This document shows, in pieces, positions 1,117 to 20,597 of a stretch of DNA of 21,577 nt. The translations under genes and the position numbers were made by a program. This stretch comes from Sanchytrium tribonematis. Its lineage: Eukaryota; Sanchytriomycota; Sanchytriomycetes; Sanchytriales; Sanchytriaceae. Under the pieces are notes generated by a model that worked only from the letters and a program-made list of their open reading frames with translations, was not told the origin of the DNA and ran no database searches. Position 1 is the first letter of the stretch. Every line of letters starts with the position of its first letter. The stretch is taken from NCBI GenBank assembly GCA_018985235.1, contig JADGIG010000089.1, positions 1-21,577 of the forward strand. The letters are read 5' to 3'.

Positions 1117-1144
1117 TAATTTTTCACTATATTAATGCAAACTA

Positions 1145-3676
1145 CTATTTTGTCCAGACTAACTCTGGCATTTGAAATAAGCTATAAATGTTATTCAAAA
1201 CAATTTGCTTAAGGGAAACTAGTTCCGTGGCCTGCAAAAATTTAACCAAATATTGAGAATATTGCAAATGAAATTTGTTTCTACAAAATGGGACTAAACT
1301 CAGTTGTACAATTGATATTTTAAAAAATTGCATACTATTAAGAAAAGATTGCTTTTGTGAATGTAAATTTTCAATTTTAGAGTACAGCTGAAGCAAAAAA
1401 TTGTAGTCACTCTCTTGAAGGTCTTTGAGAAAATAGTTTTTAAGCTCTGGTAAAATGCGTTGGATCATTTTAAAAGGATCTTCGATTAATTTAGATTTTA
1501 AATGCACATGATGATGTAACAACATCAAAATTTCTAGAAATTGATATTTTGGCTCACTTTTATAAATAGCGAATAATGGCTCCAAGTAAAAATTACTTAG
1601 CTGGTCAAGACTAAGTTCACTGCAGCGCTTATAAATGTTTGGAGCTAAAATTTTCGGGTCAATCGTAGTTGCAATTCTTGCAAATATCTCGGGGCTAAAG
1701 GGTACACATTTAACGACTTGGATCACTTCTTCAGTATTTAATTCCTTCAAAATATCTTCAAATAGAGGTTCTTGGATTTTGACTATTCCAATTGCCAGAA
1801 GTTCAATGTCTGACATTTTCAACAAATCTCGAGAAGTCTCATTAACACTCAAGGCAAAGTCTAAAAAAATACCATTTTGAGTTTGATTCAAAACATGCTT
1901 GAGTTCAGTTGTTGGAAATTTAGACGAAAAACAAGCTTCAGCGCACTTTACTTCTTGAGATATTGGCAACAAGTTTCTAGTATCTTCGGAGCTAAAACTT
2001 AACTTGAAAATATCCACCGCGAAATTATATGCAGATACTTGCTGGGTTAAAGAGAAATAGGTCATCAACTCCTCGATTGAATATGAGCGAAATACACTGA
2101 AATATAGCGAAAAGTCACTTGAATCATTTAAAAATTCAAGTGGGTCATAAATATGATTCAAAGGAATTTTTGGAATGTTCGTCTTTAAAAATTTTAGCCT
2201 TTTTTGAGAGTCTAATAATATGGATTCAAACTTATCAACATAAATTTCATTCGTATTCAAAAGCTCTAGACCATATTTAATAAGTAATAAACATGATTCT
2301 AATGAATTTGGGACTCTCTGAATGGAAGACTGCAGTCTATATTCAATATCATCAATATTTGACAATAGTTGCGTGATACTTAATTCTGTGACGGCTGTTT
2401 GTTGCCATTGGACTTTCAACACCTCACTTTGACTGATTCCCAATTGCTCTGCCATTTTTAAAGCCTCTCCATAATTTTTCGAAGATAATAATGACTCGTA
2501 TATTTTATATGGGGTAGTCATCCCAACATCATAGATCTCATTTTCGTGTGTATAAATGTCATCGCGACTATTATCATCAAATTGCCATAGTAAAATAGAA
2601 ATGATATATTCAAAAATGTAAAATATTAAATTATACAGCGTGGTTTCTTCTTCCACAGACTTTAAAATAGAATGGGAATTCCAAAAATATAAGTTTTTTC
2701 CAGATAAGAATTTTTCACCATTGAGCTCGATATTGCTAATAAAATCTATCTCTTCAAAATTTTCATCAAGCATTACCAATGGGCTAGAATCGTTATAGTT
2801 TAAAAATTTTGAATCAATGGGAAATAGTTGAGAATACTTTAATTTTAATTTTTGTTCGCCTTTAGACACAAATTCATTAACACAAAAATATCCATCACCT
2901 ATAGACGAACTCATAGAATTTGTTGGAATGCTCAATATATTTAATGGATCCAAGTGATATGGATACTCTAATATCAAATTGTGCATATTTTTGATATCTA
3001 ATTGCAAAATTTCACTGTTTTGCAGCGACTTTAGATTTTTAGCAGTAATCAGATTTAATTTATCGTCTTTGATGGATGAATTTAGAATAAACATGTCTAA
3101 TTCGTAGATTCCTTGTAGAAGTGGTACTTCATAAGTTATGCCTAACCACAAAAGCTGTCCTGCATAAGTTGTCATGATGAGGTCATTTTCAAGCCAGACT
3201 AGATGCACAGGGCACGTAACTCGGCTAAATCCCTCTTCAGCTTTCGTCAAATATTTGTTTACCAATGTCAAATAGACATTGACTTGATACAATAATTTGG
3301 CTGTTTCAATAATGTAACACTTTAAATGCCCAAGACTATTGATATATATAAATGAATCATCTTTAATAATAATTTGAGCAAATTCTGGAAACGGATCAAT
3401 ATCGATGGCAATATTGTGCAATGTGTACCATTTATCTCGTTTTCTCGCCTTAACCACTAGTTCCTCAACACTAGCAATGATAACAAGCTCATTAGTACTA
3501 GCAACTGGATAAGGTGTACTCGGAACATAAAATGGTGCGATGCTTGAAAAATTGTATCTTTCAAATGTCCTCCAAAAATTGCTTTGCTTATATTCTTCAA
3601 ACTGAAGTTTCAATTTTGCCTGATTTGCCGTTGATACGCTAAATTGAAATTTCTTGGAGATTTCTAAATAAGACAT
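1145..3676 (-). CDS. NBAS: NBAS / Sec39-family protein (NRZ/Dsl1 tethering complex subunit)
   Basis: 843 aa from the ATG at 3676 (MSYLEIS); the frame stays open further upstream but has no earlier ATG. NBAS/Sec39 is the large subunit of the NRZ/Dsl1 complex that tethers Golgi-derived vesicles at the ER; in animals NBAS also acts with UPF1 in mRNA decay. The N-terminal ~350 residues are beta-rich, as in the NBAS beta-propeller. Around residues 387-471 the order TTPYKIYESLLSS, YGEALKMAEQLG, VQWQQTAV, QRVPNSLES matches what I recall of human NBAS (TTPEELYQRKIES, YEEALSLAHTYG, RQWRKSAV, ERVPENVDA). A helical Sec39-type region follows to the C terminus. It is far shorter than animal NBAS (over 2300 aa), close to the size of fungal Sec39. 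It is divergent from PIGV with only 19 bp between start codons. The family call rests on remembered motifs, not an alignment. Confidence 0.75.
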   Translation of the reverse strand: MSYLEISKKFQFSVSTANQAKLKLQFEEYKQSNFWRTFERYNFSSIAPFYVPSTPYPVASTNELVIIASVEELVVKARKRDKWYTLHNIAIDIDPFPEFAQIIIKDDSFIYINSLGHLKCYIIETAKLLYQVNVYLTLVNKYLTKAEEGFSRVTCPVHLVWLENDLIMTTYAGQLLWLGITYEVPLLQGIYELDMFILNSSIKDDKLNLITAKNLKSLQNSEILQLDIKNMHNLILEYPYHLDPLNILSIPTNSMSSSIGDGYFCVNEFVSKGEQKLKLKYSQLFPIDSKFLNYNDSSPLVMLDENFEEIDFISNIELNGEKFLSGKNLYFWNSHSILKSVEEETTLYNLIFYIFEYIISILLWQFDDNSRDDIYTHENEIYDVGMTTPYKIYESLLSSKNYGEALKMAEQLGISQSEVLKVQWQQTAVTELSITQLLSNIDDIEYRLQSSIQRVPNSLESCLLLIKYGLELLNTNEIYVDKFESILLDSQKRLKFLKTNIPKIPLNHIYDPLEFLNDSSDFSLYFSVFRSYSIEELMTYFSLTQQVSAYNFAVDIFKLSFSSEDTRNLLPISQEVKCAEACFSSKFPTTELKHVLNQTQNGIFLDFALSVNETSRDLLKMSDIELLAIGIVKIQEPLFEDILKELNTEEVIQVVKCVPFSPEIFARIATTIDPKILAPNIYKRCSELSLDQLSNFYLEPLFAIYKSEPKYQFLEILMLLHHHVHLKSKLIEDPFKMIQRILPELKNYFLKDLQESDYNFLLQLYSKIENLHSQKQSFLNSMQFFKISIVQLSLVPFCRNKFHLQYSQYLVKFLQATELVSLKQIVLNNIYSLFQMPELVWTK

Positions 3677-10151: not shown

Positions 10152-11418
10152 TTATGCTGTAATAATATCTCCAAAATTATCTTCTTGATGAAGATCAAAA
10201 TTTGAGCTAAGCAAATTCACAAAGGCACTGGCTGCCTGAAAGCGAGAAAAGTTCTTTGTTCTTTCAAAAAAGGAATCACCTTTACACCAATTTAAATTTT
10301 CTTTTGTCAAAGGAACAGTCATCAAAGGGTTATCTAGAGCAGTCTTATTTTCCAAATTAGCCGTACCTATTTCAAAAGCATCTATTACAGAGCTTGAAAT
10401 TGGCTCTGCAAAGTCGAATTGCTCTTCAAATGCAGGCAATTCAATTGAATTTTCTGATTTTTGGTGTGCATCTGTCAAAAATTCCTCAATCTGGCGATAC
10501 GGTCGATGGGTCATATTTTGACCAAATTTTTTCAAATTTAACAATTCCATACTTTGATCGATGTTAAGTGGATCAAAAAGTGAGACTTCTGCACCTAGAT
10601 CTATAGTGACAATTTTTTCAATGATTTTATCAAAATATTTCCTGCCTACCGATCCGCTTTGCTTCGAAATGGTTCTTTTTCTTTTCTTGTATTTTTTAGA
10701 GTTGCTAAATTAGAAAGAAAAACCTATCAATATTTTTTAAAAAATTGTTCGACTTGAGGTCGTCTGGAATCCCAGATATTTTGGAGATCTCAAGTTGCAA
10801 ATCTGGCAATGATTCTTGAGTAGATTTTAGCTCGGAGTGAGCCCTTTCTTCAGAGAGAAGTTGTTGCTCCAGGTCCAAAGGAATGGGTAATATACTGTTG
10901 TCCGGCAAATCGAAGACTGGTAACGCTTCTCCCACTGAACCTCGTCTTCCAACTTCGATCGAGTCGTCGTTTTTGGTATTTCCTAGACTCAAATCAAAAT
11001 TTAACTGCTCGTCATTCAAGTCAATACCTCGATTAATTTCAATACTGGGTAAGGATTTTGCAGACAAGCTAATAGATTCTAGCAGCTGGTCGTCATCTAT
11101 TTGGAGTTGACCCTCGCTTAAATCAAAATCAAGTTGAGGCATATGTTTTTCCTTTTTTCTTTTACCAAACATACTACGATCGGTAGCTACTGTACAATCA
11201 TTCAGCAAAAATGCAGCTTGTTTTTCGTATAATTTATGTAAGCCCAAAAGTAAATATGCGCTAAGTCTTAGCGCAAATGATCCCGAAATAATATCTTTAC
11301 ATGCGGTATCAATATCGCAATGTACCGCTTCTTTCTTTTTGATCGATTTTGTGTTGTGAGCGGCTAACCAAATTAGCGAAAGCGAGCCATCGCCAATTAG
11401 ATGGCTGGTATAAAACAT
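10152..11418 (-). CDS. RAD21: cohesin kleisin subunit RAD21/Scc1 (one 19-nt intron)
   Basis: The coding segments are 11418-10724 and 10704-10152, giving 415 aa. RAD21 closes the SMC1-SMC3 cohesin ring and is cut by separase at anaphase. The kleisin N terminus is clear: MFYTSHLIGDGSLSLIWLAAH (animal RAD21 starts [22 protein letters not shown]). I chose the ATG at 11418 because the family begins MFY; an in-frame ATG at 11439 would add seven residues. Two separase-like sites occur, SIEINRG (11046-11026) and SIEVGRR (10962-10942). The C-terminal winged helix is RFQAASAFVNLL ... DNFGDIITA. The first frame hits TAG at 10707-10705; removing the intron joins it to the rest of the gene. The central linker is short, so the protein is smaller than most RAD21. 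The separase sites favour the mitotic RAD21 over REC8. Confidence 0.88.
10705..10723 (-). other. 19-nt spliceosomal intron in RAD21
   Basis: On the minus strand the intron is GTTTTTCTTTCTAATTTAG, flanked by an exonic AG before GT. It interrupts the frame with a stop formed by its own last three bases. Its removal (length 1 mod 3) joins residue 232 (AG|C, Ser) and opens the frame through the downstream kleisin C-terminal domain. It is the only GT-AG pair nearby with the right length class. CTAAT 5-9 nt before the 3' end could serve as a branch site. Confidence 0.85.
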
Positions 11419-11456
11419 TTGTTTCGAAAATTTTGGCAAATTTGAAATATTATTTC

Positions 11457-12614
11457 TTATTTACTTAACACTCTGAGATTTTCTTGAATAAGTTTTCTAA
11501 CCTTTGTCATGAAATTTTCAGGACGTTCCTTTGTATTATCAAAATTTTTAGACTGTTCAATGCTTTCAATAGGCGAAACCATATTCGATTTGGACAATCT
11601 GTTTGCTTTAGATTGTTGTTTACGCCGCCTTTTAGCTTTTACTGGCGAAGATTTAGTCGGCGACCGAATAGAAATCGACTGAGTACATTGCTCAAGTTGA
11701 TTTAAATCTGGCTGATTAATGTGAGTATCGATTGTCAACGCAGGTTTGGTTTTGTCGAGATTTTGTGATTTGACTGGTACTGCTTTACTTGTTTTTCCAT
11801 TTCCGTGAGATCCTTTTCTAGATTTCTTGGATATACTTTCAGAAGATTCACTAAAAGAGAGTTCGTCTCTGTGTCGCTTTTTAGCTTTTCTCTCATAAAA
11901 CACGACATATGGCTTGTACCTTCGCACATCCGCCTCGCTCAATTTCATAATTCTACTGTCATTACATTCATACCAGATGCCATTTTTCTTAACAATAGCA
12001 ATATAATGCCCGCAATTATCACTACCAAGATGAACTATCATACCGACTAAATTGTAATGTTCATTTTCTCCATTAAATGCAAACGATAATGGAACTGTAC
12101 TTTTCTTTCTATAAGCATTAATGGACAATATCAAGAGCTGGGGATGGCCATGTACTTCGTCAACTTTTGTTGCGCCCCTTCTATGGCATTTTTCGCATTT
12201 GTAATCACTCAAAATTGTTGATTCAGGTTCCAGATTTTTTTCTAAAGAGACTTTTGGATTGATAAATAACATATTAGACTCGTGCTTTGAATTAGATACA
12301 TATTTACAATGGCGACACTTTATGTTAGACGACATAGTAACTTGAAAATTTGAACCTTTTATATATCCCAATAAAAACAATAGTAATTCTTGAGCATCCC
12401 CTTGCTTATTCTTTTTAAAATGCTTCTTGTTTTTGGACAAATGGGATATCAGTGGTTTAAGCTGATTGTCATGGTATGCTGCTTTAATTAATTTGTTCCA
12501 TTTATGGTCGCCGTCTATCGGAAAATGTTCAATATTATGGAGTATTTGTAACACACTATTAATATAGCAGGTATTACCAAAATTACGCAAACCCATCAAG
12601 TCCAAATTGGGCAT
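11457..12614 (-). CDS. ubiquitin-specific protease (USP/UBP family C19)
   Basis: 385-aa deubiquitinase. The compact catalytic domain spans about residues 7-243: the Cys box GLRNFGNTCYINSVLQ with catalytic C16, KQGDAQELLLFLL at 70-82, a CxxC pair (C100/C103) and a second (C140/C143) that would bind zinc, and the His box CGHYIAIVKKNGIWYECNDS with H203 and D219. It ends KPYVVFYER. The C-terminal ~140 residues are Lys/Ser-rich, with nuclear-localisation-like clusters (KRHRD, KAKRRRKQQSK), suggesting a nuclear enzyme. I cannot assign it to a named USP. It lies 38 bp upstream of the RAD21 start on the same strand. Confidence 0.92.
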   Translation of the reverse strand: MPNLDLMGLRNFGNTCYINSVLQILHNIEHFPIDGDHKWNKLIKAAYHDNQLKPLISHLSKNKKHFKKNKQGDAQELLLFLLGYIKGSNFQVTMSSNIKCRHCKYVSNSKHESNMLFINPKVSLEKNLEPESTILSDYKCEKCHRRGATKVDEVHGHPQLLILSINAYRKKSTVPLSFAFNGENEHYNLVGMIVHLGSDNCGHYIAIVKKNGIWYECNDSRIMKLSEADVRRYKPYVVFYERKAKKRHRDELSFSESSESISKKSRKGSHGNGKTSKAVPVKSQNLDKTKPALTIDTHINQPDLNQLEQCTQSISIRSPTKSSPVKAKRRRKQQSKANRLSKSNMVSPIESIEQSKNFDNTKERPENFMTKVRKLIQENLRVLSK

Positions 12615-19246: not shown

Positions 19247-20597
19247 TTATTTATCTTCATCTGTTTTCAGTTGAACCTGAATACCAGCCTTGTTCAACCT
19301 CTCAAATAAGACAAAAAGTTTTTCAGCTTCGATTTCCTTTTCCTCGTCAGTCATTTCACTTATAAAAGAATCTCGCTCTTTCTGTCCAGTTACAAAGTTC
19401 CATTCTCCATGCGTTTCTTTACTATATTTCTCTTGAAGTTGTGAAGATAAGAGCCCATGGTTAACTAAATACCCCATTACTATACCCAAACCGGTATAAT
19501 TAACCATTTCCTCAACTTTATAAAAAACAATTACCTTGCTGATCGAATAAAGAAAAAACTAGTTCTTGAATTCGTTCACTTGTGAATGCAGTCATCGGAG
19601 GTGGCCTTACCTGTCCCTCGCTGATAAGCCCTACTTCTTCTTTCGTAATTCCTAGACCTGCAGTTGCAGAGAATGCACTTATAAGCCTGTGAGGCAAAGA
19701 TATGCCAGCTCCCAAAACTTCTGCTCGATCAACGTCATCTGGCAAAAGCTTTTCCTTTAAATATATTCTCCATGGCTTTTGTTTTCCCAATGAGCTTATT
19801 TTGAATTCTAAAGTACACATCCAAGTGAACAGATAAGCAATAATTCCAAAAACAGTGCCAGTCACTTCATTGTCATGAGTAAATTTGGTGTCCAAATAAT
19901 TAATTAGGAAGTCGATTAATATTTTGTCCTTCTTTTCAACATAAACATTCTCATATAATGCAACTCCATTTTCAATCGACATAACACTTTCAAGCTCACT
20001 CGCCAAAAAATCTTTAAAATGAAGTAACGCATTTAAAGCGTGACTAGTGTGGGTTTCATTCAAAACTAAGCGCCTTAACTTTTCATATAACTTGGGTATA
20101 GATATGTTTTTAGATTCAAAGAGTTTGCCCCGTTCTTTATCATTAGTTTGTACAAGATCGTAAAAATTAAGAAGATTATAGAGACACTTTAAGCATTCGT
20201 CAAGAACGTCATCCTTATCACAATCAAGTGATTCATAGATTTTCTCAACCAAAGCAACTCCGTATAACCGAATTCTTTCATGGTATTCTGTAGTAGCCAA
20301 AAAGAAAATTCTAAATATCACAAACAAATGATCTGAATGAAGCTGATCTACGACTTTGAGATCAATTTTTTCCGCATAGTATGTATGAGATCCATATAAT
20401 TTGAGGGTATTAGCAACACATTTCAACTCATCTAATTTGCTGAGATCTAGTTGTGACAAGTAAGGACTCATATCAAATATTCGGGATATTGCGAGTAATT
20501 GATCAGATCTCTTTTCTTTAAAAAACAAGGTGACATACTTTTCAACTTCCGAAGATTCAAGAGAATTAATGTCTATGTTAATATCTAAATTTGACAT
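19247..20597 (-). CDS. RIC8: RIC8/synembryn, G-alpha chaperone and exchange factor (one 19-nt intron)
   Basis: Coding segments 20597-19535 and 19515-19247, 443 aa. RIC8 folds and activates heterotrimeric G-protein alpha subunits in the cytosol. It is an armadillo-type helical repeat protein. Around the splice junction the joined protein reads VFSLFDQQ-VEEMVNYTG, which lines up without a gap with human RIC8A LFVLCSES-VPRFIKYTG. The second segment continues LGIVMGYLVNHGLL ... FVTGQKERDSF ... EMTDEEKEIEAEKLFVLFERL, matching NPVTGRVEEKP ... [21 protein letters not shown]. Upstream, PWRIYLKEKLLP aligns with ARKFLKAQVLP. RIC8 occurs in animals and filamentous fungi but not in budding yeast. CAAGGA on the plus strand (TCCTTG on the gene's strand, 20610-20605) lies 7 nt before the ATG. 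Confidence 0.9.
19516..19534 (-). other. 19-nt spliceosomal intron in RIC8
   Basis: On the minus strand the intron is GTAATTGTTTTTTATAAAG, after exonic CAAG. It contains an in-frame TAA that would end the first segment. Excision gives codon G|TT (Val355) and restores a gap-free match to RIC8. A 13-nt GT-AG alternative inside it also keeps frame but would add two residues to the alignment; other nearby GT/AG pairs give the wrong frame. Confidence 0.85.

Follow-up and report, generated by a model that had tools for sequence, protein, structure and literature searches.

A predicted 19-nt intron in RIC8 and a genome-wide 19-nt length class in the fungus Sanchytrium tribonematis

A 19-nt gap interrupts the RIC8 gene of Sanchytrium tribonematis, an early-branching fungus; almost certainly it belongs to a large set of near-identical mini-introns that are this organism's normal introns. 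The gap lies in the window, by which we mean the whole 21,577-nt stretch of DNA that was analysed, and two further 19-nt introns are predicted there. The relevant features are as follows.

19535..20597, minus strand: RIC8 exon 1, starting at the first Met (open reading frame, joined protein)
19516..19534, minus strand: predicted 19-nt RIC8 intron, GTAATTGTTTTTTATAAAG (frame join, Pfam, alignment)
19534-19533, 19521 and 19517-19516, minus strand: GT, putative branch A (position 14, placed from the motif) and AG of the RIC8 intron
19247..19515, minus strand: RIC8 exon 2, with TAA at its end (open reading frame, Pfam, alignment)
10705..10723, minus strand: second predicted 19-nt intron, GTTTTTCTTTCTAATTTAG, in a Rad21/Rec8-like gene (frame join and motif)
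1127..1145, minus strand: third predicted 19-nt intron, GTAGTTTGCATTAATATAG, whose removal merges open reading frames of 864 codons and 357 codons into a single 1220-codon frame (frame join and motif)

The RIC8 junction in the window and in relatives

Read without splicing, RIC8 exon 1 continues as ...FDQQ-GNCFL-stop, with a TAA falling within the 19 nt, and the coding sequence downstream of the gap is in a different frame from that upstream. When the 19 nt are taken out, RIC8 reads ...FDQQVEEMVNYTGLG... through to the end of the protein. The initial annotation had described a gene split over two frames, and removal of 19516-19534 does join them without a gap. The joined protein has 443 amino acids from the first Met, with the junction at residue 354/355, and matches the Pfam family Ric8 (PF10165) at 1.3e-41; the best stretch of this match, residues 339-433, crosses the junction. 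The junction region is gap-free against all seven RIC8 proteins that were selected from the match list, six named fungi among them. It is also gap-free at the junction against Synembryn chains, where the similarity is weak (best E 4e-4), and a PDB search with exon 1 by itself returned no chain at 1e-3. The gap-free match across the junction therefore stands as first described, whereas the closest named proteins are fungal RIC8 and not the RIC8A named in the initial annotation: Basidiobolus meristosporus matches at 29% identity (4e-18, with the best 7995 word-sharing candidates scored).

Three related RIC8 proteins, 52-55% identical, end 6, 10 and 6 codons beyond the same junction. Candidate intron lengths were derived from the four protein tails by back-translation. 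Of all lengths from 13 to 40 nt, only one per tail is compatible with GTA...YTNAYNNAG: 19 nt here and 20, 32 and 20 nt in the relatives. Random tails fitted 19 or 20 nt in 101/1546 cases with five residues, 23/1542 with six and 11/1619 with ten; they fitted any length in 151/1546, 157/1542 and 235/1619 cases, respectively. The relative whose tail fits 32 nt only is P0004, and the length class may be looser there.

As for the other two predicted introns in the window, the Pfam match of the Rad21/Rec8-like gene (PF04825) covers residues 1-81 and stops short of the junction. The joined Rad21/Rec8-like protein (10152-11460, minus strand) carries the N-terminal Pfam domain only, and a C-terminal Rad21 domain was not reported. 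A Pfam search of both pieces of the gene with the third intron returned no family.

A genome-wide length class at 19 nt

We searched 6.34 Mb of genome in 311 contigs, the window's contig included. Two loose patterns gave no excess over their reversed controls: GTAAKTN{5,20}TAAAG had 237 matches against 696, and GTAATTN7ATAAAG had 8 against 8. We also counted forced GT-AG gaps, those that stops to either side make necessary, in a sample of 217,826 bases (GC content 35.2%), made up of the window and 20 stretches mainly chosen by pattern matches and hence enriched in one sub-motif. There were 25 such gaps at 19 nt, compared with 1-20 at other lengths from 10 to 80 nt; eight control dinucleotide pairs gave 4-18 forced gaps at 19 nt, making the GT-AG peak a modest one. 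Because the looser patterns showed no excess and the raw peak of forced junctions was modest, we turned to patterns anchored at the 3′ end.

Two anchored patterns were used, GTA...CTAATTTAG and GTA...CTTATTTAG, with the GTA allowed anywhere 12-40 nt away. Genome-wide they yielded 76 and 78 matches, 154 in all, some of them with a common 3′ end. Exactly 19 nt was the length of 80 of the 154 matches and 20 nt that of 19, and matches outside 18-21 nt averaged 1.2 and 0.88 per length. With all lengths pooled, the anchored patterns showed no excess over reversed controls (76 versus 59 and 78 versus 87); the excess was confined to the 19-20 nt class. The exact 19-nt pattern had 49 matches, compared with 3 in the reversed control. 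Tabulating gap lengths, a check that the initial annotation had proposed, thus gave a sharp genome-wide mode at 19 nt, and for these two 3′ ends the distribution is the narrow one (mode within about 15-21 nt) of a uniform ultra-short class. Since the two 3′ ends give 80 matches at 19 nt and yet cover only 4 of the 19 forced 19-nt junctions that bear the branch-like motif, these counts suggest a few hundred 19-nt introns in the 6.34 Mb searched.

Ten of the 49 exact 19-nt loci (list numbers 2 to 11) were picked by order, with the frame unseen, and examined in stretches of 1.2 kb. Removal of the 19 nt joined open frames at all ten, to totals of 197-376 codons, many of them clipped by the edge of the stretch. 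Coding scores were positive on both sides of the junction in 10/10 loci, and the unspliced reading met a stop within 1-28 codons. Intron phases 0, 1 and 2 occurred in 5, 2 and 3 cases. A Pfam match crossed the junction in eight of the ten loci, seven of them above the curated cut-off: protein kinase, ornithine decarboxylase C-terminal domain, ABC transporter, V-ATPase subunit E, replication factor C, HAD hydrolase and lactate/malate dehydrogenase. The eighth, EF-Tu domain 3, scored slightly below its cut-off (26.4 versus 27 bits), and the remaining two loci had no Pfam family. The kinase locus was gap-free at the junction against the SNF1-like kinase ssp2 (3h4j), as was the replication factor C locus against an RFC subunit 3 chain (8tw7).

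How often such joins arise by chance was gauged in the same sample. The motif YTNAYNNAG ends 19 of the 25 forced GT-AG gaps of 19 nt, compared with 41/718 at other lengths. Under a simpler frame-restoring rule, whose thresholds were fixed after the ten-locus test, 25/35 of the 19-nt stretches with GTA and YTNAYNNAG qualified, against 49/1041 of the 19-nt GT-AG stretches without the motif, 4/94 of those with the motif at other lengths from 13 to 30 nt, and 768/20,000 random positions.

Intron anatomy, spliceosome components and competing explanations

The 19-nt sequences share a fixed layout: they start with GTA and carry a branch-like YTNAY motif whose A is nucleotide 14, five nucleotides before the end. 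Base composition was taken from 81 introns, in which positions 1-3 and 11-19 were preset by the search patterns. Among the freely varying positions, G occupies +5 in 4% of the introns and U occupies +6 in 68%; A is found at position 10 in 62% and C in none, which gives the branch region a tendency towards ACTNAY. The initial annotation had argued that 19 nt leave almost no room for a separate branch site and polypyrimidine tract. The tract between branch site and 3′ splice site is indeed missing; a branch-like site is kept, however, fused to the 3′ splice site.

Components of the major spliceosome are encoded in the genome. A U2 RNA with GUAGUA and a U6 RNA with ACAGAGA both score above the Rfam cut-off, and a U1-like RNA beginning AUACUUACCU scores below threshold (43.7 bits, gathering score 69.5). 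The +5 G is found in only 4% of the introns despite this encoded U1-like RNA with its usual AUACUUACCU start. A Prp8 gene is present, with six domains in the 1970 residues retrieved, and its relatives in EukProt are 71% and 69% identical; a tree built by a "quick" method groups the genome with two relatives on a long branch and gives that branch no firm place. The precomputed Pfam list for Prp8 of this lineage (P0106, P0107, P0108) is without the MPN domain PF01398, which most other tabulated Prp8 proteins carry. Rfam scans of the sampled stretches gave one tRNA and nothing more. A search for SF1 in the 6.34 Mb, which may be a fraction of the full assembly, had no match, and the control search was equally silent. 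The search for Isy1 was aimed at altered branching factors, an idea proposed for Stentor; its one match above cut-off (C40:10086-10319) was judged a false positive, since it lies in a long open reading frame that resembles a sorting nexin by eye.

We propose that the spliceosome would recognise the initial GTA together with a YTNAY motif, often ACTNAY, that could pair with the GUAGUA of U2. Nucleotide 14 of 19 would be the branch A, closing a lariat loop of about 14 nt; five nucleotides would remain, the last two being AG, and the 3′ splice site would be this AG at a constant distance from the branch point. A U/A-rich stretch would separate the 5′ splice site from the branch site. As the U1-like RNA fits GUAAGU while the introns are mostly without a +5 G, recognition may depend in large part on length and branch site. 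The spliceosomal RNAs look ordinary; it is their substrate that is extreme.

With GT-AG ends, restored frames, a branch motif that U2 can pair with, and U2, U6 and Prp8 genes alongside the sub-threshold U1, we hold with high confidence that the 19 nt at 19516-19534 form a U2-type spliceosomal intron belonging to the genome's standard length class. The length mode, the motif and the frame joins all bear out the spliceosomal reading with which the initial annotation began; the splicing itself we infer from the DNA. The 19-mers might instead be removed or bypassed without the major spliceosome, for example by tRNA-type splicing or translational bypassing. Such a route is compatible with evidence that comes from DNA, and we rate it as very unlikely given the GT-AG ends, the branch motif fitting U2, and the presence of U2, U6 and Prp8 genes. 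U12-type signals were not seen either. The U12-type 5′ splice site has an ATCCTT-like consensus, and among the 81 introns C accounts for 4% of position 5 and 7% of position 6.

The RIC8 frame could also have been broken by an error in sequencing or assembly, the GT-AG appearance then being coincidental. The assembly looks like one from whole-genome-amplified material in single-cell mode, where errors do occur; two sanchytrids were assembled with the single-cell mode of SPAdes, and open reading frames on their contigs were translated with TransDecoder (Galindo et al. 2021, PMC8371127). Some 19-nt stretches also restore a frame by chance, at the rate given above for random positions. An error would nevertheless have to account for a length and motif common genome-wide, with all ten tested loci at junctions, and for RIC8 frames that break at the identical position in three relatives. 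This shared break argues strongly against sequencing error, which we regard as extremely improbable.

Relation to known ultra-short introns

Introns of 15-16 nt have been reported in heterotrich ciliates, of 16-17 nt in mikrocytids and of 18-21 nt in chlorarachniophyte nucleomorphs (PMC10245619). A length of 19 nt is thus close to the known minimum, as the initial annotation had stated, and mikrocytids are to be added to the precedents that it listed. It had known of no fungus with introns of this size as standard, and the literature that we searched, which covers few subscription papers and preprints, yielded none. In five papers that name sanchytrids, the word "intron" occurs in reference titles only (PMC8371127, PMC10459994) or is absent (PMC10406608, PMC9616733, PMC10470594). 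Within the literature searched, the predicted introns described here are the first ultra-short class in fungi that could be found.

The 15-16 nt introns of Stentor coeruleus share with those described here a single narrow length class, GU-AG ends, and conserved U2 and U6 recognition sites (PMC9505925). The branch A of Stentor is nucleotide 10 in introns of 15 nt and nucleotide 11 in those of 16 nt, with five nucleotides after it (PMC9505925); the putative branch A here is likewise followed by five. The branch region in Stentor is described as lacking a strong consensus (PMC9505925), whereas the putative branch A here, at position 14, sits in a clear YTNAY. Because the distance from branch to intron end is five nucleotides in both, the extra length here would lie in the 5′ arm.

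The mikrocytids Mikrocytos mackini and Paramikrocytos canceri (16-17 nt) are similar in having introns of nearly a single length with conserved sequence, and in being small parasites (PMC10245619). They differ in belonging to Rhizaria and in their modal length, 217 of 224 introns in M. mackini being 16 nt long (PMC10245619). The abstract of the same paper likens mikrocytids to anaerobic microsporidians; here, a mitochondrial cox1 is present. The cox1 matches lie in four pieces across 5 kb of a 24,986-bp mitochondrial contig, with TGA within each, which suggests cox1 introns and TGA read as Trp in the mitochondrion. A search of this contig for circular overlap found no exact terminal overlap. 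Nucleomorph introns of chlorarachniophytes are alike in length range and narrow distribution (cited in PMC10245619), although a nucleomorph is a relict algal nucleus and the introns described here are in the main nucleus of a fungus. Microsporidia, likewise fungus-related parasites, are described as having few, relatively short and highly similar introns (PMC10245619). Unlike here, no single 19-nt class was seen among microsporidian introns. The usual lower figure for their length is about 23 nt.

Taken together, we consider it probable that a reduction of nuclear introns to a single class of 19-20 nt extends to the whole phylum, Sanchytriomycota with its uncultured relatives, as the first such case in opisthokonts. 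On the same probable reading, Stentor and this lineage would have in common a minimal spliceosome geometry, in which the branch A stands five nucleotides from the intron end, the 5′ arm is free to vary (9 nt precede the A in Stentor and 13 do so here) and the +5 G is given up, and published proteomes would be cut short at such introns.

A fungus, and perhaps its phylum, joins the three lineages cited for introns of 15-21 nt (PMC10245619), with a strong branch motif retained. It allows the factor that limits how short an intron can become to be tested independently, and the comparison with Stentor suggests that a constant distance from branch to 3′ splice site is involved. Where this lineage is annotated by open reading frames only, many genes would be split or cut short, a point to weigh when gene losses are claimed.
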